Shown in pieces: positions 33,815 to 52,614 of a DNA stretch of 64,000 nt (the first letter of the stretch is position 1; every line of letters starts with the position of its first letter). This DNA comes from Endocalyx cinctus (Eukaryota; Ascomycota; Sordariomycetes; Amphisphaeriales; Apiosporaceae): positions 1,860,001 to 1,924,000 of the forward strand of contig BCKC01000002.1 in NCBI GenBank assembly GCA_001600455.1, read 5' to 3'. The position numbers were made by a program, and so were the translations under genes. A model generated the notes under the pieces. It had not been told where the DNA came from. It did not search any database and saw nothing but the letters and a program-made list of their open reading frames with translations.

Positions 33815-35937
33815 GCATGCCAAATATGGAGCCCTAGTTTCTAGGTAGCACGGTATCAGACGCCGGTAGACGCCGGAACATACGATACCAACGGACGAAA
33901 AAGCAGGTACCGTATATTTAAACCAATAAATAATCCACAATTAGAAATATAATATTTAACTTCAACTCCATATTCTTGTGCGTGAAAATAAAAAATGACA
34001 TGACAATATGGTTCATGTTCGGTATGGTTCTGAATGGCACGGTCAGTCACAGCCCATGTTTACTTGCTTTTATGCATGCATCCATAGAAGTATGGACGTA
34101 TGTACAAGTACATAGTATGTATGTGATCTGGGCCTAAGCGATCTCCGTCAGAGTATTCCTAATGAGGTCATTGCTTAGTTTTGGTTGAAACGACGATACT
34201 CTGTGCGACGTTTTTGAAGAAATTGTTGGCGTTTTAAGTTTTGAATATCTTTTGTGCAAGCCAAGAGTTCGCGGAAAACAACCGAGTAATGAAAGGATTC
34301 CTTGTAAGATTTACGCAACATTATTCGTGGTATACGTACATAAAATATCCAATATATCCACATATCCACGCATCCACATGGAATCCACAACTTCTTGGTA
34401 AAATTTTATACACTACTGTGTGTAATACGAAAGATCGGGAGATGTAGTTTGTGGGGTAAAGGGATCTCGAACTTGTTAGAACCAGTGACAATCGAAATTT
34501 TTTCAATTTCCAACCAGGATTTGTATGCAGTATGACAGCATGTGAGCATGTGATACCTTTATTTTTCAAGATGCTTTTGCGGAGAGAGCTTTTACCTAGA
34601 AGCTTTACTTCGAAGAAGAAGAAAAAGAAAAAAGAAAAAAAAAAACATATATGTATCCATACATCATAGATAGTACTATGTTCATGACTGGGGAATGAAT
34701 ATGTAATTTTTGTGGCGTTGACGCGTGGGATTCTTTTCCTTTTTCGATTTGCTTTTCTACCGTCTCTGGGCTCTGCCTCTCTGCTTCTCCGCCTCTCCAC
34801 AAGTGACAAGTCAAAATGATAAACTTCTCTAAGCCCCAATCCATAATCTACTATGTACATCCATGAATAGTATGCAGAAAAAAAAAAAAAAAACAGAAGT
34901 ATGGTCGAGTCATCGCTGTATATACAGTATGACATAGTCTAGCTTCACTTATTTCAATTTGCTTTTTAACTTAAACACAGGATATACTTAAAACTTAGCA
35001 TAAACGCTACTTATGCGTAAGTACTGAAGGCTGTGAAGACAAGCATAGTAGTAAGTATATCGTTCATTCAACGATAGGAATGTAGTTTTAGGAAGCTTAG
35101 CTACTAATCATTGACTGTCTCTGGAGTAAATTGACCTGAAAGAGGAATGTGGGAATAATAGACATGTTTTGTTTACCACGTATGGGTTTATAATAGTGTC
35201 ACACTCACTGGTTCGGAAGGTCAAAGATCAGGGGTTGAGGGGTTACATTCTTAGGCGCTAGAAGCTATCTGACCATGTACTATAACATACCGGTGCTCCC
35301 TACCGGTACTCCTTATTAGTCCTGTATTACAGTAGTATAACGCTGTAGTGGTGTACGTATACTGGCATGTACTGGTAGCTCAGGGTAGGACAGGCATAGG
35401 CTCTCCATAGGCTCTCCACTAAAGCGCCTGTTTATGCGGGGATTAACCAAATTAGCTTAGCTCGTACGTGTATTGGCGCATTAACCCGAACCACCATAAA
35501 ATCTTCTTCCTCTTTTGAAATCATCGGATCGTCCCATGCCATGTCACAAAACATTAAAAATCTCCAACAAATACTGTTGTACTTTACTCATTCATTATAT
35601 GATATACACACACAGCTTATATATTAATTTCCCCTCTTTCTTGTTTTTCCCTCCTCTTTTCTATTCCTTCTCTTTGTATCTTCTACCCCCTTTAGTCTCA
35701 AGTAACCCATTTGGTTTCATACTTAAAACATCAAACCTCGAGACGATAGAAATTGGAGCTTAGGTTCGGTTGGAATATTTAACATTCGAGACTACTACGT
35801 ACAAGGCACACTCGGAACTACATCCTATATCCATACGAATACTCTAGGTAGTGATATCTACTTGGATACTCGATATTTATTCTTCAGTTACCCAAATTAT
35901 TTCTCTACGGTATTCACCGTAAATCCGATTTAGAATC
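33815..35937. other. Intergenic region mak11-INSIG
   Basis: About 2.1 kb without a supported gene. A frame at 34321-34935 (-) is driven by A/T tracts (34615-34645, 34877-34893) and has no domain. A pyrimidine-rich tract at 35630-35695 is the likely core promoter or 5' leader of the INSIG-like gene. A box-A-like string near 35371 lacks a box B, so I do not call a tRNA. Confidence 0.55.
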
Positions 35938-37216
35938 ATGGCGGATTCACCCAGTAGCCCACCTCTCTTTCGACCCATCCCTCGTCGACCCTTCAATCTG
36001 AACTTCAAAGAGCCCACACCTCCCGACGAGAGCTCGGCCCAGCCAAGTCCTTATGGATCTTCCACATTAAACCTCGAGTCCTTAAACTCCCGACTACTAG
36101 ATCCGAGAAACCGAAGCCGCATATTACCCTCGGAACCCGGCTCTGCTAACATCAGCCGTGCAGCCTCGGTAATGAATCTCACTGGATCGACGTTGATGGG
36201 TATATACTCCCCTACCGTTCAGGGAAGGGAACGATACTTTAGCGGAGGCGATGATCTGAGCACACCTTGGGGGACCGGTGCGGAAACCCCGGCAAGAGGA
36301 ATTGACCTCGACGATCCCAACTACGAACTTCTTAAAGAGAGAGCACAGCCAACCCGGCGGCGGTCTTCCTTACACCAACACCAACGACCCCCTCCATTAT
36401 CGACCCCAGCCTCGATATCCTACCTCGGATTGCGAGCATTGCTACTGTCGGGACTAGGTGCTCTTTACGGACTCTTAGTAGCTCAAATCGACGAGAGGCA
36501 CTTGAACAGCAAGCTTCACGCGGCCAATCCCAGCGTTACGTACGTGGCCTTTTGGGGTGTGATCGGGATAGCTCTTGGAAGCCTTCTTCCTTGGTGCGAT
36601 GGTATTTGGGAGAGTGTATTTGATCAGGACTGCGCTATTGAAACTGCCGCTGATCACGGCATGGGAGCCGACGAAAAATGTGCTAAACCTGGGTCGAATA
36701 CCGACTGGGCCTTAGCCGTCAGAGGAATTGGCTTGATTTTAGGGATTGCCTTTGCTATCGTAAGTTCCCATACAATTTACTACCCGCGTCAAACCGGTGT
36801 CAACTAACAATTTTCTCCAGCGTAAATTGCCGTGGGACTCGACTCTCCAAATCTCAGTTGCGTTGGCTCTGGTCAGCCCGGTGCTTTGGTACCTGATTGA
36901 CCGCTCTATGCCTGGTCTTCTTGTGTCGTCGACGGTCGGTGTGATCGGTTCTGCGGTGCTGATGGGCCTCCAACCAGTAATGGTACCGTTTCCAGCAAGC
37001 CCCTTGGCTTTCGACATGTACAGCTTACACAACCAGTCGACGAACCATGTGGACCCGCTGATTCTCGGCGGACTTGCTCGTCAAGAGACCGTGGCAACAG
37101 GTGTATTTATGCTCAGCGTCCTCTTCTGCTGCTGCGTGTGCTTCGGAAATATTGGGCGATGGTTGGCTCTCAACCGATCCGCTACGGCTAAGGGTCGATG
37201 GGCGCAACGCCAGTGA
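35938..37216 (+). CDS. INSIG-domain ER membrane protein (sterol regulation)
   Basis: Two exons, 35938-36759 and 36821-37216, joined over a 61-bp intron (FAI/RKLPWDS), give 405 residues. Residues 1-155 are a Ser/Pro-rich, probably cytosolic, phosphorylatable region. About six hydrophobic segments follow: GLRALLLSGLGALYGLLVA, YVAFWGVIGIALGSLLPW, VRGIGLILGIAFAI, ISVALALVSPVLWYLI, LVSSTVGVIGSAVLMGL and FMLSVLFCCCVCFGNIG. GIAFAIRKLPWDSTLQ is the INSIG family hallmark. Family role: ER proteins that control HMG-CoA reductase stability or phosphorylation and, in animals, SREBP-SCAP retention. Fungal homologues (S. pombe Ins1, A. fumigatus InsA, yeast Nsg1/Nsg2) act on sterol synthesis. No other sterol gene lies in the window. 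Confidence 0.9.
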
Positions 37217-40200
37217 GAATGCAACAAAAAGCTTCTCGTGATTTATACGACTTGATGATCTCATAAACAAAGCACTAAGCGCTTCTTTCGCATATATCAC
37301 CCAACTCGGGTCGATCTGTACATATACATTGTAGCGCACCCCTTTGAATCAAGGGGAGAAATTTCTGACACTTGTTCTTGACGGTTCCTGGCATAAGGCA
37401 AATGGATTCATCATTATCGGTTCTAAACCCCCAAGACGGGGAATATCGGCAAATAAAAGAAGGTTTATCTCATATTTTAATCCCAACAGTGTGTGGGGGT
37501 CGCATCTATCTCTCCTCTTATCAGCGTAACTGGATATCTCGTAGCTATTTTCACGGTCATCGGTTTGGATTCGGGATTTTTTATCAAAAGGAAAGGCATG
37601 GGATTACTGGCTAGCTTATTCTATATATCATGACATGAATAGATCATTGTATTCATCAACTCTGAAGATCAACTCCTCAAAGTAAACGTAAATATATTTT
37701 CCCAACGTAACCAACCGTTTTTTTTTGTGACGTTCGTAATGTTTTTGGCTGAAGCCCCGCTGCCCGGCTAACTCGTGTATTTATAATCATGGTTCCGACT
37801 AAATCTCCTTAAGTTCAAAGCCGGCGTACGACCGGGTCCGAACCGGTTGTGGGCTGTGAAAAGGCGACCCCGAAATTAAGTTTTATCCCAGTCATTTTTT
37901 CATCCCGCGCGCAAAACCTCAACTGGTGAGGTGATTTAAAAAAAAAGCCGACAAATATTATTCTATCCAAATTCCAGATTTTAGTCATGAACTTCATGAA
38001 CCCCCTCCTCCCCTCCGACTTACCTAGGACGGGTCCACCTTAGGGCTGGAGAAGAAAAAAAAAATTTTTTTATGCGCTGGGGAGGAGGGGGAGAAAAAAT
38101 AAACAAGATTTATAGTCTATAAGATAGATTAGATATATGATGGAGAAAAGAGAAAAAAAAAAAAAAAAAAACTTGATGCTCGCTGGTTATACCGGTTGTG
38201 GAGTAGGTTAACTAGTTAACTACTTCTCCGCGTTTATGCAACAGATTGTGGGACTGATTGACGGAAGAGGGGAATCTTGAAAATGTTAAAAAAAAAAAAA
38301 AAAAGTGAAAGGGGAATTTTTGGATCCTCTTCAAGGCTGATATGGCGATGAGTGATCTTGTCTTGGTGAGTTGGGTATGGATGTGATATGACGGGCGAGC
38401 TTATATCCGTCTCTTTTTTCTGTGATGTCTATGTGTGTGCGCATGATTGAGAAACTCACCATGGGGTGCGGCTTAGGCATGAGATGGGTAGGTGTATATT
38501 TATTATTATTTATTCATTACATACGCCTGTAAACCTACGATATATGTAGGGTTATAATCCTTCCACTGTGAGTTAGATAGACGTGCCATGGACGGGTTAA
38601 TATACCTAAGGGGTGCTGATACTCGACAGAGAAACTCCTAGTACCTCACTTTTTGCGGCTTTAAGTCATTCTCGGCCGTCGTGTGAGTTTGAGACGGTAT
38701 CGAAAGACTGCGTACTCAGTTTGCACAGCTAGAAACTGCGGTTGTATGTATATTGCGAGAAGAGGACCAAGAACACTACGCCAGCGCGAAACATGACGAG
38801 AGTAAACATTGAATTAAAAAAAAATATGAACTGTATAAGTAATGAGTTTCGATGATGCATAAGTTGGTACTGTATGTAGTGGTCGGGCAACGGGGCATCG
38901 TGTGTCGTGGGCAAGTACAAGATTACAACAGCCACAACAATCGTATGGTGTTAGAGAATATCGTGGTGCCGTGTATGTGTAGGCGTACAGATATACTTCA
39001 TCTCATCACATGGTATAATAAGATACGGTATAGAAGAATACTAACCTTGGGAGCTGCGCTGCATTCTCTTACTTACACTTACGTCTACCGGTATATCAGG
39101 TATGACTGGGTTGCTTTCATTTGCTTATCATCCGACTTCACGAGCTCCGTGTATATATGTGTATATATGTATGTGCGTGTACCTAGAGCCCTGCTACGAT
39201 TTTGTCTTAAGCAGCGACAAATATTGGAAGCATGTGAAGTCGAGCAGGATGGGCCTCGTAGTAATATGCATATGTCAAGTCCGGTCCCTTTCGATGTGAC
39301 CGCAAGGTCGTGATACAGCATCACCACAGGAAGATGTCGTTTTCAGTATCCTTGACTCTTTTTTCCCCTTTTAATTAAGTGATAAGCTGATTATTAAACA
39401 GCATCCTGTGGATTCTGGACGAAAAAGAGTCAAAAGATGAATAGACCAGTGGCAATGTACTACTGTACCTATGTGTAACCTTGATTGGTAGTTGAGTCAC
39501 TATAGGTTCTCTTGTTCATGATATCTTGTTTTTCATGTATTACGATATTAAGCAATCACCAGTATTTTGAAGACCTTACTCGTACTCAAGTTCAGTTGGT
39601 GTTTTATCCTCTTACATTAGCTGCGGAGGTCTTCTACATGATCTTCGCAAACAACAAAGCGCCCCCGACACGCCTGGTATTCCCAAACTGCAGCTATCCG
39701 TATTCAATGTCAGAAAACTGTCACGCGATATCGCGGCAATGAGCGTCATATGAGGGTTTAATATCAAACATAGTTGTCACATTCCCAACCTCTGCCGTTC
39801 TATAAAGCATATTGACGGGTTACACATAGCTGTTGCAGAGTGGTGATCTCGGCCGAGACTACCTGTAGTTCTTCGGGATGTCTCTGGTATTGTGAATTCC
39901 GTCGCAGAGACAGTCGTAGGGATAAGTAAGCATTTCTGAAGATTACCAGGCCCGATTAACTTCCTTTAGTGACTCCTTACCACGATTACCTCCCTGTTTA
40001 TCGTGCCCAGGTGACAGTACGTTAAAAATTAACTGCGAAGATAGGGTCGGCGTGACCAATCATAACCAGGCTTCCTCTCGACTTTTGACTTTCGCGATTA
40101 TGGACTACATATTTCTACTCTACTCTTCGATTCCGGATAAAATTGGAAACAAAAGGACGGAAAGACAAGTCTTTCAGGCAATGTTCATGCCAAAGAAGGC

Positions 40201-43200
40201 ACGGATAGAAGCCGCGAAGACTCGGGTCGCTTCCGTCGTCGCAGATGAATTCCACGTTAAGTGAGATGCTAATTGACAAGGAAGCTTCATCATATGCTCA
40301 AATTTTTCACATACAGTACTCACCTTCAAAAGACAAAATTATACACTCGTTTCATTGTTATATTCATATTCAAACGGTTACTAATAAGGAGGTTTTGTAC
40401 GCGTACGTGTGTACGAATAAGGGGATTATAATTCTCATGTAATGGTAATACTAGGGTACCTTTTTTTGTTTCAAAATCATAATATCGCCCTTATTATGAC
40501 AACTACTCTGTTCGCCGCTATCAAATCTCGCAACTCGATATAATTCTTCTTGGCGATTAATAGTACTATTATCGATATTCTACGAAGAAAGAGAAAGAGG
40601 AAAAAAGTCAGGCCCCTGACTTACCTGTATCCGTGGTGGACTCGAGCTATTGGGATACATCGGAGACGGATGCAGTCGGCCATGGATCACGATCGTCGCT
40701 TAAGACAATACTTTGCACCGAGAGAAATTGACGAGGGTACTTGGTAATTTTCGCGAACATCAAAGAAAAAAAATTGACTAGGCGCCAACTACATCACGAT
40801 ACGACACTCGACCTACCGTCGTACAGGATTTTTCTACTATGGCCTGCGGGCCCGGCGATAAATGCCGCCGATGTCTAAGAAAATATTGATCTAGATCTTC
40901 TTCGAACCTGCCTGATTTGCAGAGCCGCCTTGTCTCACGGGCAATTAATTGATGTTTTCGGAAATTTCGAACGAGATATACTCGCACACCGAGGGGTATG
41001 CATGTCGTATGGTTCGATTTTTTCGCGTTATTCAGTCTTGGGCCGCTCTTTGCTTCTTTGCTTTTGAGATGGTCATTTCGATCACGCTGACGTGATGATT
41101 CATGTGACAATCGGGTCGAGTCGATAGCAGAGGAAATAAAACATAGGGGTCCGAAGCATGTCTTCAATCGAGTCGATAGAGAAAGGAAGAAAAGCTGATG
41201 TAAGACCCTCTCAAGTTTAGAACGGCGACCACCGGTCTTGAAGCTGCGACAAGTAGGCTGTCTAGGCTAGATCATGACGATGGCGCATCTGGGACAGATC
41301 GATCAAGAAGATGCGGTGACGGCGAGGTTTAGCACGAACATACTACAATATATTAGAATGAAGTACGGTGAGTATCTCGGTGAGTTTAAGTCATGGTAGT
41401 ATAATAAGTAGGTATAGTCGATGGTGAATCGAGATAGACGACTTAGTGGGAAGATGGGACATGGTTGGACTTTTCTCAACAGCTGTAGGTAGGAATTAGG
41501 ATTGTCTTAGATATCGTCTCTGCATTGCATACAGAAAAGGGGCTTCTAGATTACCACCGCCTCCGGTCAATTTAAACCCTACCTCTTTCGCTAATGTTCT
41601 TTGGCCCGCCAGGGCCCCCAACGAGTTTTGGGGTACTGGACCCAGCCTTTACCATAGTCGGCACGAATCCGATGGGAGGCATCCTTTTTGCAAGCTGTAT
41701 TATCTACCGCGCATTGTCTAAATTAATTGCTTTCTTTTCGGCCGATGCTGTGGGACTTGGGAAGAAGAGAAAACAAGAGACGGTGAAGGGAAGAACCCTG
41801 ATGCGGAAGAGGTGCGGCTGCACCCACCCCATCTGTTGGAGGAGCATGAAGAGATCTACCGTGGTTTCGTCAGAGACTATCGTGAATCGGGACGTTCAAT
41901 ACGCTAGATTTAACGCCCGTAGGATAGGGAGAAGACAAAAATATGCCTCAAATGTTCCTAATTCGGGAGAACTCGCTTGTGAAGTAGTCATTGGGTTGCT
42001 GTGTAGTCACCGAGAATAGCTACACCTGGTGCTTCACAATTGTCTGAAGCTGGGAAGTCCAGGGAAAAGGAAACTGGGACTAAATTAGGTAAGGTGTGAA
42101 ACATCACGGCCAAAGCGTTAAAGGTTTCTCTTCCCTCTCTCTCACATTCTTTTTTTTTTCTTCACGAATTTCGGGTTTCTCTGCGTTACTATCGCAAGTC
42201 TGGTTAAACCTTAGGTTACAGCCACTGCTCTTTTTGTTTCGATGCGAAAGCGGTGGCTTCAAGGAATGAAGTCGAGGAAGGAAAAAAAGGATTTTTCGAT
42301 AGCATCCAAGCGTGTCTTTTCTTTTTCTGGCCGTGCGATGTACTAAGCACGCTATGTACGTATAAAGGGTATATATTATATCGTTATATACTATGTATAT
42401 CATCTACATTATTCCTTGTGTTACTCACAGGTTACGCGTACGGAACTGACAGGAGAGAATTGCAAGTCTTAACGAAGAGTGACCGTATAGTTGCCTCGTT
42501 CAGTAATGACAAGCATAGAAATCTCGAGTATGATTTACGCCAAGGACACATCAAAGTACATCAACAATGACGATTAGCGATCGCGTCTGTGTGTATCAGA
42601 ATCTTGGCAGAAACTTGAATAGTTTGACACTGGAGACAGTTCATTGGAATTAAGGTATAGTGTTACATCGCTAGACCATGTTCACGTATAGCCCCCCCTA
42701 ACGTATAATACCAGGGATTCCGGGAAATGGCAAATTATTGGACGCTCCGCTTCGAAGTTAGGCTCGTCACAGGGAATACAGAAAAAGGGATTGTTAAAAA
42801 AATAGAAAGATTCGCATAGGCGTCTTCTAGGCATTGTGATCATAATAGATGACTTATAGTATAGAGACAATGGATTGGTAGAGGTCGAGGTCACTAGGTA
42901 CGTGCTCAAGACACGTCCACGGGTACCACTTACAGGTACTTACTGCTTAGTAGGTTGGAGTACTAAGCTTGAAAATAAGGACGTTGGATAGTTAAGTCGG
43001 TACTTAGTTACCAGTACTCAGTAACAGAGTTCATATGAAACTACTTACTTAGTAGAAACATATAGTATTACTCGAACCCATTTGTTTTGAAGAAATATAA
43101 AACAAAATATACAGCTAATTGTAAACCACCTACAGTAGATACTGTCTAGCGATAGAAGTGTACTATCGTAAGTAGGTTAGGTAAAGTAGGTATTAGAGAT

Positions 43201-43239
43201 ACTAAATAGTTTGATATTATGGTACAGTGGTATACTAAC

Positions 43240-43350
43240 TACCCAGGTAGGTAACTACCTAGACTAGGCTGCTAGGTACCTAGGTAAGTACCTAGGTAAG
43301 TACCTAGAGAGGTAAGGTTACAATACCTACTTAGGTAGATACCCGTTGTC
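43240..43350. repeat. Second dense TACCTAGGTA cluster
   Basis: Contains CCAGGTAGGTAACTACCT, CTAGGTACCTAGG and two direct copies of TAGGTAAGTACC, in the same family as the 25.9 kb cluster. Confidence 0.7.
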
Positions 43351-43890
43351 TAGGTGTTATTCTTCGTCACCGTCCCCGGCTCCTCTACTCCGTAAGTAAG
43401 TACTTTATCATCTTCCTTCATTTTTTTTTTCTCATTATGTAAAATTCAAGTGTATCAACCTATGAAAAGTTTACAAACTATTGTAGTTCTCAATCTTTCT
43501 AAAAAAGCTTGTATCAAGCTGACGTTTGAGGCCTGCCGCTAGAATTATGGTATTCCTTTCCCCAGGTCTCAGGTCTTCTACTAAAAAGCCCTACCAGCAC
43601 CCAAGGAATACGACAGCTTGCCTCAGATGCAAACTCTTGAAACGTCGCGAAATCCTGCCCCGCCAAATATACCCTTGTACTTGGCCTACATGGCGGAAAT
43701 CAATCGCCAAGAAAGGTTAGGAAAACGCTTTGGAGCTCCCTGCACATTGGAATTACCTGTTTCATACTCCAAATTCCACAAATGCAAGCGCTTCCAGCCT
43801 CAACCATGGTATTCGAACTAAGATTTCACGAGATATGATCACTGAGAATAGGCGTCGCTACGGTATTTACGAGATGGAGTCAAGTGAGGC

Positions 43891-44110
43891 ATATAAGTAT
43901 GAATGCACTCCGTCGAAGGAAACTCAATATTCCATCTCATCTCCATCGCATCTCATTCACATCTCACACCTCTTTCCTTCTTTCCCTCATTTCTTTATTT
44001 TATTTTATTCCTTTCTAACATTCTGTGGCTGGACCTCCACATTTATATTATTTTAACTTTCATTTTTATTGACTTTCTTTGAAAATATAATTTCACTTTC
44101 AAATTTAAAA
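43891..44110 (+). promoter_or_regulatory. Likely core promoter and pyrimidine-rich leader of the repeat-protein gene
   Basis: A TATAAGTA element at 43892-43899 is followed by a C/T-rich tract (about 43929-44030) and an A-rich leader ending at ACCATGA. TATA plus CT-tract is typical of strongly expressed ascomycete genes. The transcription start is inferred, not seen. Confidence 0.45.
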
Positions 44111-44118
44111 CCGAAACC

Positions 44119-45219
44119 ATGAAGTTCCTCCACCTTCTTGTCCTTGCCACTTCGGCAACTGCCCTTGTTCTGCCCCGTCACCATACCGCTGGCGGTAAGA
44201 ACAGCAACGCTGCTGCTACCACCGGTAACAACAACGCCGGTAACAACAACGCGGCTAACGTTGCCGCCGCTGCCGCCAACAACTGCAAGCGACACCACAC
44301 TGCCGGCGGCAACAAGAACGCCGCTTGCAAGCGGGACGTCGATGACTTCGAAGAAGATGACGACGAAGTCGACGATGTTCTTGACAAGCGCCACCACACT
44401 GCCGGCAAGAAGGGTAAGGGCAAGAACGCTCGCGATCTTGAGGCCCGTCACCACACCGCCGGTAAGAAGAACAAGAACAAGAACGCCCGTGACGTTGAAG
44501 ATGAGGAAGACGTCGACGATGAAGACGACGTTGATGTTCTTGACAAGCGTCACCATACCGCTGGTAAGAAGAACAAGAACAAGAACGCCCGTGACCTCGA
44601 GGCCCGCCACCACACCGCTGGCAAGAAGAACAAGAACAAGAACGCCCGTGATGTCGAGGACGTTGATGAAGAAGATGATGATGTAGACGTTCTTGACAAG
44701 CGCCATCACACTGCCGGCAAGAAGAACAAGGGCAAGAACAACAAGCGTGACGTCGAGGAGGAGGAGGATGACGAGGAGGTCGATGACTCCCTCGACAAGC
44801 GCCACCACACCGCTGGCAAGAAGGGCAAGGGCAAGAACAACAAGCGTGACGTCGAGGATGTTGAGGATGATGAGGATGTCGACGAAGAGGAAGACGATGT
44901 CCTTGACAAGCGCCACCACACCGCTGGCAAGAAGAACAAGGGCAAGAACGCCCGTGACGTCGAGGAAGAGGAAGACCACGAGGAGACCGATGACGTCCTC
45001 GACAAGCGTCACCACACTGCCGGCAAGAAAAACAAAGGCAAGAACAACAAGCGTGATGTTGAGGACGATGAGGATGTCGACGATGAGGAAGATGACGTCC
45101 TTGACAAGCGCCACCACACTGCCGGCAAGAAGAACAAGGGCAAGAACGCTCGTGACGTCGAGACCCTTGACCGGAGACATCACACTGCTGGCAAGAAGAA
45201 CAAGAACAAGGGCAACTAA
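44119..45219 (+). CDS. Secreted Kex2-processed repeat precursor (HHTAG repeats; KEP/RiPP-like)
   Basis: Single exon, 366 residues. A signal peptide (MKFLHLLVLATSATA, cleavage near 16) is followed directly by LPR-HHTAG. The rest is a tandem repeat with twelve HHTAG[GK] cores. Most read HHTAGKKNKGKN or HHTAGKKGKGKN, and nearly all later cores are preceded by LDKR or DRR, classic Kex2 cleavage contexts. Cores are Lys/Asn-rich and basic; spacers are almost pure Asp/Glu/Val. Some cores end NNKR, giving 13-residue peptides after cleavage, and others end NARD, which Kex2 should not cut. The two N-terminal units differ and end in Cys before KR. No Pfam-type domain is recognised. The architecture matches fungal KEPs and ustiloxin-type RiPP precursors (established), but no UstY-like (DUF3328) or other tailoring gene is adjacent. 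Role unknown: signal, antimicrobial, structural or metal-binding are all possible. Confidence 0.88.
   Translation: MKFLHLLVLATSATALVLPRHHTAGGKNSNAAATTGNNNAGNNNAANVAAAAANNCKRHHTAGGNKNAACKRDVDDFEEDDDEVDDVLDKRHHTAGKKGKGKNARDLEARHHTAGKKNKNKNARDVEDEEDVDDEDDVDVLDKRHHTAGKKNKNKNARDLEARHHTAGKKNKNKNARDVEDVDEEDDDVDVLDKRHHTAGKKNKGKNNKRDVEEEEDDEEVDDSLDKRHHTAGKKGKGKNNKRDVEDVEDDEDVDEEEDDVLDKRHHTAGKKNKGKNARDVEEEEDHEETDDVLDKRHHTAGKKNKGKNNKRDVEDDEDVDDEEDDVLDKRHHTAGKKNKGKNARDVETLDRRHHTAGKKNKNKGN
44380..45216 (+). repeat. Coding tandem repeat array (ten units of variable length)
   Basis: Units of roughly 57 to 135 bp, each with a conserved basic core and a length-variable acidic spacer. Units differ at synonymous sites (CAC/CAT, GCC/GCT) and by in-frame loss or gain of GAT/GAG-type codons, so all copies remain in frame. 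Such arrays usually vary in copy number between strains. Confidence 0.85.
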
Positions 45220-46158
45220 GAAGTTGGAGCCTTTTTTCACACTGATGCCCATCTATTCACTATAACGGGTGGGCAGAATAGGGATCAGGGTCATCCGACT
45301 TCGGATGGCGTATGGATTGAATCTGTGAACCACAGCGATAGGGTCCTACCTTTTGAAGGGCTATCACATGTCGTTTATGTGTAAATATAACTATTTTCTT
45401 AGAGGTCTAATTGTGAGATAATAAATTTTGATTTGCGATGAAATGATAATTTCCTTCGTTCTGCATTGTGAAGTGATATTTTTGTGTTTACCGTTGTATT
45501 TTTGCCAAAACCCTACAGGCTCAGTGACTTGGTATAATTTCTCATAATTCCTAACAGTTAATCATAGTACTGGTAACACGAGGTAATTCGAGAGATTGAA
45601 CAAGATAAGTGAGTTCTTGAAGGAGACATGTTCCGCTGATTTTGTATCAATGGATGTTGGCTTAAGGGAGAAAGAGATAGCTATCACATGATCTTTGGTT
45701 GTATGGGGTATCTTACTAATATTACTCCATAATTTAATATTATCCGATAGAGTGATATTAATTAGCATCAAGGGAGGAAAAGTCTTATTCCGGGGATTTT
45801 TGCTTCTTGATTGAATGAGTGAAGGGATCAAGTAACCTCGGTACAACTTACCTACTCTACTACCTCTTGTACCACCGACACGGATCGTTAAAACAGTGAC
45901 GTTTCACAGTTATTGAAGTTTCTATTCTTTTCGTTTCAGAACTATAGAGCCCGAACCCAATAACATCTTTTCTCTCTCTAAAGTTTTGTTCAAATGCATG
46001 TATGCTGAATATTGGCTGAGTTGTTTAAGGATACAGTATTCCCCAGAAATCTTACGTTGAGGACAGTCCGGTACTACTAGGTAGTTAAGCTTATCTGACG
46101 GTCACCAATATCTATAAAATATTGGTCGACAAGGAGCCCTTCTGTCAATATTGCTTTA
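45220..46158. other. Intergenic region
   Basis: 3' flank of the repeat-precursor gene and promoter of the histidine-phosphatase-like gene. The frame at 45562-45846 (-) has no recognisable features. Confidence 0.6.
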
Positions 46159-47358
46159 ATGTCTTTAGAAGCCATCTACGTGGTGCGTCATGGGGTAAGA
46201 GTTAATTCATATATTCATTAGTGAGATTCGGACGTCTCAAGAAAGCAACGCTCATCTCCTAAATTTGAAACTGTCTTATATTACCCCTATCTACGAAATT
46301 CAAGCTGAACACACCTACCAGTTTCGCACTACATGGACTGTAAATCCTGCCACGGGTCACTATACAGCTGCTTTTCCTACCCCCACGGGATTACCAACCG
46401 ATCCCGCTCTAACATCTCATGGGGTCGAACAGTCTAACGAGCTAGCTCAACACATCTTACAACTGAACCCGCCAATAGACCAGGTATATTCGAGCCCGTA
46501 TTATCGATGCCTACAGACTATAGATCCATACGTTTCAATACGCCATACGCAGGAACCGACTTTCCGTGTCCGCCCAGAGACAGGTCTGAGTGAATGGTAC
46601 GGCGAAGCAAACTTCGAGCATCCAACTTCGGCGCCCCTGAATGAATTGAAGGCGTTCTTCCCGCATATTGATACAAGCTATGTTTCTTTCCTAGCGCCTC
46701 CCCGGAAAGGCGAGTCGGTATCGCAGCTGCACGAACGGGTAGCGAATTCTATTGACTCCATCATCAAGACAAGCGACAAGGAAGGCAAGAAAGCCGTACT
46801 GATATGCACTCATGCCGCGGCGGTGATAGCTCTCGGTCGAGTTCTAACGGGGCAAATCCCGCGAGATGCAGGCGTAGAGGACTTTAAAGCATTCACCTGC
46901 GGCTTAAGCGTATATCGACGGCAGGGTATCTCAAGTACTAAGCCGACTGACGGCATGGGAAATAATCTACTCAGGGGTAATGTGGATCGGAGCGATATGC
47001 AGGTTAGAGATGCAGGCTCAGATCCTGCACTCAGCATCCACCATCTCTCATTAGAACTAGAACCCAAAAACCTACCTATAGCTGGAGGCTGGATATGCGA
47101 AGCAAACTCGGACTGCAGCTTCCTCCGATGTGGCGAAGAAAGGGGGTGGTAAGCGTTCCTTTCTCTTACTAAAGAATTGCTTATTATAGCCGGCTTTGAT
47201 CTGACCAATAGCGTAGGAGATTCTCAGGTGACGAATCATTCGTGGAAACTGAGCAGCCAGATATGTCGCCACCAGATACGAATATGAACGCTGACGGGAC
47301 GGCTTTCCTGGATGAAAACAGTACAGACAAGTTAATCATTGGCACGCATAAGCTGTAG
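46159..47358 (+). CDS. Histidine phosphatase superfamily protein, similar to TFIIIC tau55 (Tfc7)
   Basis: Three exons, 46159-46194, 46322-47148 and 47217-47358 (introns 127 and 68 bp), give 334 residues. The tiny first exon supplies the catalytic RHG motif (MSLEAIYVVRHG/FRTTW). The middle exon has the family pattern NPATGHYTA...GLPTDPALTSHGVEQ, YSSPYYRCLQT, LSEWYGE and the second catalytic His in ICTHAAAV. The last exon (WRFSGDESF) is joined through a CGTAG acceptor that restores the expected GGW.FSGDE ending. Phosphoglycerate-mutase-fold proteins of this type include yeast Tfc7, a subunit of the RNA polymerase III factor TFIIIC, as well as true phosphatases. Catalytic residues look intact, so phosphatase activity is possible. 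An apparent stop at 47150-47152 lies in intron 2. Confidence 0.88.
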
Positions 47359-49526: not shown

Positions 49527-51155
49527 CAAAAAAAAAAAAGTGCTGGAGATTTTTGAGATATTCTGATATTCTCGGGAAGGGCTGCCTACCAAGAAAGAAG
49601 AAGTTAACCGAACTTTCTCATACGTTCGTTCGTGCCGAATGCTGGAATGCTCATACTTCATAACACCCCATGCACATGCTCAGATTATTTCCTTCTTTTA
49701 CTCTACGTGTAAAACCAACAGCATAATACCCAAGTCTTTGCATCCACTTCGCCTTGTTCTTTATTGACAGCTTACCACCTGGCCTGCATATTAACGACCC
49801 CTCTTTCTACGCAAAAATTCATGCTCATCCCCTCTCCCCCTAGCCTTCCTGAGTCTTATCCATGTAACTATTTCCAACATCATTGGTCAACCCGACCCGA
49901 CAGTTTGGTATACCCTCAAAAACGACAAATGATATACCCCAAATGGAATACTTCGCTGGTCACAGTGCAGAAAATACGATGGACTTTCGTAAAAAAATAA
50001 AAGAAAAAGATAAAAAAAACAAAATAAAATAAAAGGAGACAGAAAGGACAGGTGTAGTATGTATGGTATGGGCTGAGCCATTTCCCCTCGAATGTTAGAA
50101 AGTACTTCAATGGGCGAGAAATAAAAAAAAAAAAAAAAAATACCTGATTTCCCGTGTCGCTAATAGTATATCCTAACTAGATAAAATTTTCAGCTATAAC
50201 CAATGACGAAGATGTCTTCATTCATTTTATTTTCTTATTCTTATTCTTATGATTACTTTTCTTTTCGCTCTATTAGAGCTGATAGAAGATAGTTCTGACA
50301 TAAACTACTAATATGGGAAAGTCAACCATACGATATGCAGGACACCCCTCCACCCACGTCCAGATTTTGGTTGCATGGACGTTGAAACAGTGTATAATAA
50401 ATGTAGCCAGTAATATGCAGGTTCCGGGTCCATTTGTCGACAAAGTCCCTCCCTTGCAACGCCATGATTCATACCCATTGTCAAAAGTGACATTCGGGCT
50501 GGCTGGGTTCCCATGTTGATTGTATACCGCCACCAGACAATCGTCTTTGGAAGACTGTCACCCAACCAATGTCAAGACATTTTCTTCTCTCATCCTCTTT
50601 TCTTTTCTTCTCCTCATTTTTTTTTTCTTTCTTTTTATACATTACCAACTTTGTTCCTTATGAAGAATAATAATCAACTTAATGGCTGATATGGTTCATG
50701 TCTCTACTACTCAACAATCTATCTATTAACTTACGAGACAACATCCCAAAAGCCACCAAGTCTATGTACTCGATCCCGCTTCATGTACCCGGGTGAGGTG
50801 CCTCGAGTAATTATTGTTGTGGTGTTACTGATTACCGACACCCTGGGGCGTTAGTTCCGTTATTCTTCTCTGCAGGAGAAGAGGTAACTCGGCTCTTCAA
50901 GAGATTTGGATCTTCTATGTCGGAATATTTTCTTGTTGGATCTATTATAATCCACCTTAGGTCTACGGGTAGCCCCCCTTCCTCCCTCCATCTATAATTA
51001 TATCTCTTCCTTGCTCACTTTCTTACATCCCTCCCTCGATTGACCCATATGCGTCATCCAACAATTGAAATCCTTCTATACACCATTATATACATATACG
51101 TCTTCTCTTGTGTAGCCAACAAGTAGAGAGATAAAACAAGATAATACATAATAAT

Positions 51156-52614
51156 ATGTTGGTAAAACAAGAAGACGAGAGCATGACTTCGGTATCAAGA
51201 AACATGTGGTCGAAGGCACCACCACCCAACTTTATTTTCCCAATACGCTCGATACAACACCCTAAATCTCCCCCGGCAGACCTCGACGGCGGGCATGAGA
51301 GACAGAGACCGCGACATCTCGGACTTCTGGACAGCAAAGCCAACGACTGGACTGCCGTCGACCTCGCGGGCCCAGGCTCATCGCCGATAGAATCAAGCTT
51401 CGGTTCCTCGCTGTCGCAAACATCAGCGACCCCGGAATCTATTAGGTTGGCACCGTCAACGGTGCCCTCGACACCTAGAACTCCTCCTCTGCAATTAAAG
51501 GACGAAACGGATGATACCATTATGTTGCGGCCTTCGTATATTCCACGGAGGCTTTCGGACGATATGATGGTGGACCAGAAAGTCGAACTCCCGGGCTTCC
51601 AGCATCTCCTGAAGGATCCAGAATCAGTAACTCGAACCCCGAGCTTTCACACCAGCCATCGTATGACCCTGACTTCTGAGACGGTTCGGCGTCTGCAGAC
51701 CCCGAGCCCGAGCCCGGAGCCCGGTAGCGACTACGTCTTCTCGAGAAGGCCGCCACCGTCGCTTCTACTTCCACCGTCACCGGCACCGCCACCGCTATCA
51801 TCCTTACCCAATGACGACCCCATCACCCGGAACCTCAACATGCTCCGACGACAAAACGACAAGGGCAAGGAGCTATTGGAGCGGCCGGAAGGTCTTGGAG
51901 ATTATTCCGTGGATATTTCAATAGACTACCCGAGAGACCCGATCCACCAGTTCGCCGCGAGGAGAGGAGGAATTCGATCATCATCACCTCCCGACCATCA
52001 TTATTTCCCCCCTCATCATCATTATCACCCTTATCACCAGCAGCCGCAGCACAAGGTGCGAGCGCGGCCGAAGCACGACAAGCACTGCAACATCAAGTAC
52101 ACTATCGAAGAGGTCTCGTTTCTGCGGTACTTCAAAGAGGATCTGAAGCTCAACTGGAACGCTATCCTCCAGCGGTTTAACGACAAGTTCCCTATGGCCG
52201 ACGGCTGGCAGAGGGAGCGTCAGGGCATCCAGGGGGTCTACTACCGCGACAACATGAACGTCCCCGCCATATCCAACGAGACTAACCAGCTCGAGTTCCT
52301 GCCCAACGGCCACGTTAAAGGCGTCTCCCGCAAGGTCCGCCAGCAAGGCGACAACAAGAAGTATTACGGCCTCGTCCACCTCTACCCCGAAAGAGCGTTA
52401 ATGTACGATTGGGTGGATCAGAAGTCCAAGGAAGAAGCTGCAAAACTGAGTAAGTGGAAAATCTTTTTCTTCTTTTCGTTTACTTTCCGTATGTGATGGA
52501 ACAATACCAGGCGCCGAAGGAGAGAAAAAAGGGAGGAGTGTTACAACAAACATCACGCTGACAGTATACGAAATGAATAGACGAGTCCCGGGTTATGCAA
52601 AAAAATCGTGCTAA
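51156..52614 (+). CDS. Conserved-looking Pro/His-rich protein with possible Myb/SANT-like C-terminal region, unknown function
   Basis: Two exons, 51156-52449 and 52511-52614, with a 60-bp GTAAGT...CAG intron, give 465 residues; the second exon is less certain than the first. Residues 1-300 are Pro/Ser-rich and disordered with a His-rich stretch at about 285-300 (HHYFPPHHHYHPYH). From about 305 comes a basic linker (RARPKHDKHCN). A helical region at about 316-365 follows (YTIEEVSFLRYFKEDLKLNW, RFNDKFP, then IQGVYYRDN). The WxxIxxxFxxxFP-type spacing resembles Myb/SANT-like DNA-binding folds. It ends near LVHLYPERALMYDWVDQ. I do not recognise a named protein. A regulator role is inferred from this architecture and from the long CT-rich upstream region. 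A start at 51183 is also possible. Confidence 0.7.

Follow-up and report, generated by a model that had tools for sequence, protein, structure and literature searches.

A putative stand-alone Kex2-processed repeat precursor with twelve HHTAG cores in Endocalyx cinctus

A single reading frame in the genome of the ascomycete Endocalyx cinctus encodes a 366-residue protein that is likely to be a stand-alone precursor for Kex2 processing, freeing up to ten cationic 13-residue peptides together with two N-terminal variants, all probably linear, unmodified and abundant. It fits the class of Kex2-processed repeat proteins (KEPs) as a stand-alone and so far unmatched example, not as a new kind of precursor; new are the 13-residue regularity that emerges when Ala-Arg (AR) is included among the cleavage sites, the exclusively silent variation of HHTAG, the acid-free cores, the codon bias and a gap of about 307 kb to the nearest UstYa match on the contig. 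The gene lies in the window, by which we mean the whole stretch of 64,000 nucleotides that was analysed, and occupies C2:1904119-1905216 in contig coordinates. As an earlier note on this DNA had stated, one frame at 44119-45219 holds twelve HHTAG cores; the next residue is Gly in two of them and Lys in ten. Its parts and flanking signals, in window positions, are these:

43892 to 43897, + strand: TATAAG, a possible core promoter picked out by eye, with a pyrimidine-rich stretch just 3' of it (about 43928-44015)
44119 to 45219, + strand: whole precursor gene, a single ATG-to-stop frame of 366 residues requiring no intron
44119 to 44163, + strand: signal-peptide-like N-terminus by hydropathy (residues 1-15), likely cut after A-T-A
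44164 to 44178, + strand: short pro-segment LVLPR ahead of core 1
44179 to 44292, + strand: core 1, HHTAGGKN, and an Asn/Ala-rich linker with NCKR at its end
44293 to 44334, + strand: core 2, HHTAGGNKNAAC, then KR
44335 to 44391, + strand: first of seven long acidic spacers, LDKR at its end
44392 to 44430, + strand: core 3, 13 residues, after LDKR, then R (AR)
44449 to 44487, + strand: core 4, after LEAR, then R (AR)
44551 to 44589, + strand: core 5, after LDKR, then R (AR)
44608 to 44646, + strand: core 6, after LEAR, then R (AR)
44704 to 44742, + strand: core 7, after LDKR, then KR
44803 to 44841, + strand: core 8, after LDKR, then KR
44914 to 44952, + strand: core 9, after LDKR, then R (AR)
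45010 to 45048, + strand: core 10, after LDKR, then KR
45112 to 45150, + strand: core 11, after LDKR, then R (AR)
45178 to 45216, + strand: core 12, after LDRR, with the stop codon right after exactly 13 residues
45420 to 45425, + strand: AATAAA, a possible poly(A) signal picked out by eye

The N-terminus reads MKFLHLLVLATSATA, followed by LVLPR and core 1. Judged by hydropathy, the signal peptide claimed earlier stands as a signal-peptide-like start (residues 3-15 average 1.71 on the Kyte-Doolittle scale, and A-T-A precedes the likely cut), and no membrane segment is seen by the same measure, the best 19-residue mean past residue 20 being -0.28.

A chance origin of the HHTAG repeat is excluded. 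Over all 44.76 Mb of the genome, a degenerate DNA word encoding R-H-H-T-A-G finds 12 exact matches, every one inside the precursor gene, compared with 1 match for the reversed word as control, and the protein, when searched against its own genome, matches only itself and is thus encoded by a single copy. Across the 66 pairs formed by the twelve HHTAG copies there are 0 amino-acid differences, and silent ones average 2.00 per pair (pS 0.545, pN 0.000), a comparison among tandem copies within one gene and not among species, and this pattern indicates that the peptide itself is under constraint; for the ten HHTAGKK cores, compared over 12 codons, pN/pS is 0.19. The idea that we are looking at a low-complexity frame and not a working gene, in keeping with the failure to find a homologue, has a virtually negligible probability in view of this silent-only variation, the signal-peptide-like start and a codon bias above that of 69 of 69 sampled ORFs.

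The ten HHTAGKK cores consist of HHTAGKK followed by a mix of N, G or K, and end in NA, NN or GN, while cores 1 and 2 read HHTAGG and carry no KK. Within their 130 residues the ten are composed of H, T, A, G, K and N only, with 40 Lys, 20 His and no Asp or Glu, so that each carries a charge of +4 with His uncounted. All 94 acidic residues of the protein sit in the 164 non-core residues after residue 72: the seven long spacers (16-20 residues when trimmed) have charges of -11 to -15 and the three short ones (4-6 residues) charges of -2 to -3, and the precursor as a whole has a net charge of -16. Past residue 20 the protein has a single aromatic residue, F77, which belongs to a spacer; no core contains Tyr, Trp or Phe.

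The precursor contains 13 KR/RR sites, of which seven read LDKR and one LDRR, all eight immediately ahead of a core. The residues before the cores are KR in eight of the twelve and RR in one, bearing out the observation that most cores follow KR or RR, the exceptions being AR ahead of cores 4 and 6 and PR ahead of core 1. A KR/RR digest in silico, done by script and by eye, yields 14 fragments, the longest of 53 residues, nine of which begin with HHTAG and measure 13-53 residues. With KR/RR cuts and trimming, five clean cores of 12-13 residues result (2, 7, 8, 10 and 12), and the other seven (1, 3-6, 9 and 11) remain attached to a linker, to a spacer or to one another in trimmed pieces 20-51 residues long. 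Directly behind the core, the slot reads N-A-R in cores 3, 4, 5, 6, 9 and 11 and N-N-K-R in cores 7, 8 and 10. When AR is counted as cut alongside KR and basic ends are trimmed, all ten HHTAGKK cores come out at exactly 13 residues, and the 13-residue length proposed earlier gains strength on this condition. Such uniformity is the main internal evidence for the use of AR, but is not proof of it, as the even core length might also stem from tandem duplication. Six cores have AR and three have KR at the same post-core slot, which makes the precursor a natural test of Ala-Arg cutting by the Kex2 of a filamentous fungus; if AR is cut, surveys based on dibasic sites alone would mis-size such precursors.

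What is reported for Kex2 bears on these sites in several ways. Expression of mushroom KEPs in Pichia is described as yielding products with cuts behind single arginines, and the authors invoke monobasic Kex2 cutting as shown in yeast (PMC9769878). Acidic residues and small ones are enriched directly behind cut Kex2 sites (PMC2515848), which the precursor's KR followed by DVE and AR followed by D match; the favoured post-cut residues named there do not include His-His. Kex2 also favours positive over negative residues at P3/P4 (PMC10699272), for which reason the Asp of LDKR is not ideal, and an MF-alpha leader variant printed in the same source likewise ends in LDKR. The genome holds a kexin-like gene, with P-domain matches at C5:88870-89189 and a subtilase domain in one of the frames at that locus. 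The cleavage sites are not comparable between species, because no homologue was found.

Based on this layout, we envisage that the precursor would enter the secretory pathway, that Kex2 would cut it after KR and RR (as in the LDKR ahead of seven cores and in NNKR) and, less surely, after AR and PR, and that a Kex1-type carboxypeptidase would trim the basic ends. Up to ten cationic His-His 13-mers per precursor would be released in this way, plus two N-terminal variants, and the acidic spacers would most likely serve as parts of the propeptide that neutralise charge. The earlier expectation that each processed peptide begins His-His holds for the cores and fails for the spacers: fragments from KR/RR cutting begin with HH or DV, the acidic spacers among them with Asp-Val, and cores 1, 4 and 6 would be freed only if PR or AR is cut.

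Six of the nine internal HHTAGKK cores (3-6, 9 and 11) lack a C-side KR or RR, which would fit a protein that works intact, or in large fragments, as a polyampholyte outside the cell or bound to the wall and whose KR sites are incidental or only partly cut. Its alternation of basic, His-bearing blocks, acid-free in the ten HHTAGKK cores, with acidic ones would agree with this, a high codon bias would suit a structural role, and a precedent exists in Rep1 of Ustilago maydis, a secreted repeat protein that is cut at Kex2 sites and has a surface role (PMC7329392, PMC9769878). However, the Rep1 peptides are described there as water-repellent and as forming amyloid-like fibrils, whereas our precursor is charged and hydrophilic and, unlike a repellent, has no hydrophobic stretch past residue 20. 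As 13 KR/RR sites, eight of them LDKR or LDRR directly ahead of cores, also speak against it, we regard a polyampholyte as unlikely, if worth keeping in mind.

Cutting might also go further than we propose. G-K-K resembles the amidation signal of animals, and cutting at the internal KK followed by trimming would leave either HHTAG, a pentapeptide, or HHTA in amidated form. No part other than HHTAG is shared by all twelve copies, and KK is accepted as a possible Kex2 site in both KEP surveys (PMC6339444, PMC7329392), but cores 1 and 2 have no KK. The amidation domain PF03712 has no match in this genome, nor in any of the control genomes. We give this shorter product little credence and retain the 13-mers as the preferred products.

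In PMC6339444 and PMC7329392, KEPs are described as having an N-terminal signal peptide, no further membrane segment and at least three similar repeats between Kex2 sites, with 8 or more residues and none above 100 in PMC7329392. Checked by script and eye, not with the published pipelines, our precursor has nine HHTAG-starting fragments of 13-53 residues, 53 being the maximum, and hydropathy gives no sign of a membrane segment. In common with KEPs as described in PMC6339444, PMC7329392 and PMC9769878 it has a signal-peptide-like start, near-identical peptides bounded by KR or RR, no UstYa nearby and no homologue found; its His-His cationic core, its mostly long acidic spacers, the AR in place of KR after six cores and the strong codon bias may set it apart from other KEPs. 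Together with the failed dikaritin and alpha-pheromone tests given below, this make-up places the precursor in the known KEP kind. Of the earlier description as a KEP/RiPP layout, the part that predicts a secreted, Kex2-processed repeat precursor stands, and the RiPP part finds no support, as nothing points to modification. DUF3328 genes, mentioned next, we take to be of the UstYa type. The KEP count in print is 7,878, 22% of them with a DUF3328 gene nearby and 2,560 without homologues (PMC7329392), so that orphan status alone is unsurprising.

A signal-peptide-like start followed by Kex2-spaced repeats is likewise typical of ustiloxin- and phomopsin-type dikaritin precursors. The dikaritin core needs an aromatic residue for cross-linking, however, and none of the cores has one. 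The genome contains 48 matches to UstYa (PF11807), and oxidases encoded elsewhere could in principle cyclise the product, but the nearest match on the gene's contig, at C2:2211922, is about 307 kb away, compared with a printed mean distance of 3.09 genes (PMC7329392); a dikaritin-type RiPP precursor is thus extremely improbable. Some UstYa-like matches occur in tight groups (C2:4420656-4423248, C2:5575586-5580383 and C6:3174364-3176990), where dikaritin-type clusters may lie.

The surroundings of the gene agree with the claim that no UstY-like or other modifying gene adjoins it. Two Pfam matches flank it:

35923 to 37213: INSIG, left of a stretch without Pfam matches
46199 to 47149: histidine phosphatase, about 1 kb right of the precursor gene, TFC7-like by the names of some of its homologues

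To the left, at 37.2-44.1 kb, six frames of at least 110 residues gave no Pfam match. Between 37.2 and 57 kb there are 21 stop-to-stop frames of at least 110 residues, five of which overlap the precursor gene; 14 of the other 16 were scanned, the remaining two (51815-52177 and 51987-52397) overlapping the scanned frame 51135-52493, and the histidine phosphatase was the sole match among the 14. No modifying enzyme gene was found among the scanned frames of at least 110 residues around the precursor gene, a size range outside which small intron-rich genes would fall; in the window as a whole, 30 of 90 such frames were scanned besides the precursor gene. The roughly 6.9 kb at 37214-44118 that lack a Pfam match in frames of at least 110 residues carry tandem copies of GTACCTAGGTAA at 43276-43307. 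Rfam gave nothing in the window at gathering score, and a scan of the window for bacterial-type promoters and terminators has no meaning for fungal DNA.

Ascomycete alpha-pheromone precursors, too, carry repeated peptides after Kex2 sites, and with its LDKR sites, as in the MF-alpha variant (PMC10699272), the layout of our precursor would suit a signal that serves mating or development in the manner of an alpha-pheromone. A strict scan for the usual Sordariomycete alpha-pheromone core, run with no positive control, had 0 matches in the genome, leaving a separate pheromone gene unlocated, not absent. Alpha-pheromone cores, however, are described as having either two conserved Cys or PYGxPxG (PMC6339444), and the precursor has neither type, nor any Ste13-type XA/XP after its sites; the earlier judgement that the core is unlike both ustiloxin-type peptides and alpha-pheromones is well founded. 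The codon bias, moreover, is probably stronger than a pheromone should need, although a KEP gene of Neurospora, poi-2, shows high expression in sexual tissue (PMC7329392). We consider a mating signal very unlikely.

Further afield, animal neuropeptide precursors also place dibasic-bounded acidic stretches beside the presumed active peptide (PMC4772807), but the precursor is fungal, and this would at most be the same solution reached separately. Among 5.39 million open papers, HHTAG itself turned up in six, of which five are unrelated by title and one has it inside a plasma peptide of human suprabasin, a repetitive protein; there it is internal (GQGVHHTAGQVGKEAEK) and, in the peptide as printed, without a KR boundary (PMC7806982), and we take it as coincidence.

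Relatives of the precursor were sought at several levels. In a set of 5.8 billion proteins, the whole precursor had no match at E ≤ 0.001 among the 7,988 scored candidates that shared most words with it, and residues 1-115 had none at E ≤ 1 among 1,206 candidates. Low-complexity words crowd these candidates, and the comparison took in only those proteins whose length is 0.55-1.75 times that of the precursor, so that relatives of much smaller or greater length could escape. No relative was confirmed in bacterial and archaeal genome contigs, searched with six Asn-rich or acidic patterns, HHTAG not among them; the genome-level search in fungi covered the precursor's own genome only. The best Pfam match (E 0.82) falls below the cut-off, and NCBIfam and PDB sequences gave no match. 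As a positive control, the neighbouring histidine phosphatase found 507 homologues, and the 120 matches listed include dozens of named Xylariales, the best of them being from Xylariaceae sp. at 57% identity; by these matches the fungus most likely belongs in or near Xylariales, an order that the protein set covers well. As no listed match exceeds this value, a near relative of the source fungus is perhaps absent from the protein set, which weakens the absence of homologues. No paper title on an HHTAG peptide was found, and the supplements to both KEP surveys may list a relative. With a single gene and no relative found, 'peptide family', as the earlier note had it, has no support; the gene's occurrence may be limited to its genus.

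The codon adaptation index of the gene is 0.645, with weights taken from a small set of three exons, one of EF-1alpha and two of HSP70, that were named by family match and by reading their translations. For comparison, 69 ORFs of 200 codons or more were sampled, 18 of them in the window and 51 in twenty stretches of 10 kb placed at round-number positions; none reached this value (mean 0.232, highest 0.502), although their scores are lowered because stop-to-stop frames may include introns or untranslated parts. The neighbouring genes, in 13 ORF stretches, score 0.15-0.43. Recoding the precursor with the codon usage of its neighbours gave a mean of 0.229 and a maximum of 0.308 in 2,000 trials; recoding it with that of EF-1alpha/HSP70 gave a mean of 0.759 in 500 trials, and as 0.645 lies under the whole range obtained (0.685-0.828), the gene is near, but below, the reference set. 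The bias is not merely a matter of repeat copying, since the non-repetitive first 58 codons reach 0.62. By part, the cores score 0.736 and the rest of the protein 0.584; Lys is AAG in 53 of 55 cases and Asn is AAC in all 38. A bias typical of heavily used genes is a strong, if indirect, pointer to high expression.

As regards function, a His-His amino terminus would chelate copper or zinc. We would guess, tentatively, that the product is an extracellular cationic His-His peptide that binds these metals and/or acts on neighbouring microbes; predicted abundance and composition favour such a role over a mating signal. Known linear KEP products comprise a mating factor, host-interaction effectors, an aerial-hyphae factor and a cytolytic toxin (PMC7329392). 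According to PMC9769878, most KEPs have no known role, few KEP peptides have been detected, and six KEP deletions in Coprinopsis had no apparent phenotype in pure culture. For the present precursor, the predicted product, His-His 13-mers, is well defined and simple to look for, and codon bias suggests that the gene is heavily expressed. Each precursor would supply up to ten basic 13-mers, seven strongly acidic 16-20-mers and three short acidic pieces, and it is conceivable, if decidedly a long shot, that bis-His 13-mers and spacers, made in large amount, remain together outside the cell as a two-part secreted polyelectrolyte, a coacervate or hyphal coat that binds metal and responds to pH, in which case the spacers would be products and not waste.

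Long open frames overlap the precursor gene on both strands, at 44056-45252 on the minus strand and, in another frame of the plus strand, at 44123-44683 and 44687-45262. When the gene was recoded synonymously 500 times, with its own codon usage retained, an antisense frame stayed open in all 500 cases, indicating that the minus-strand frame is a by-product of codon make-up.
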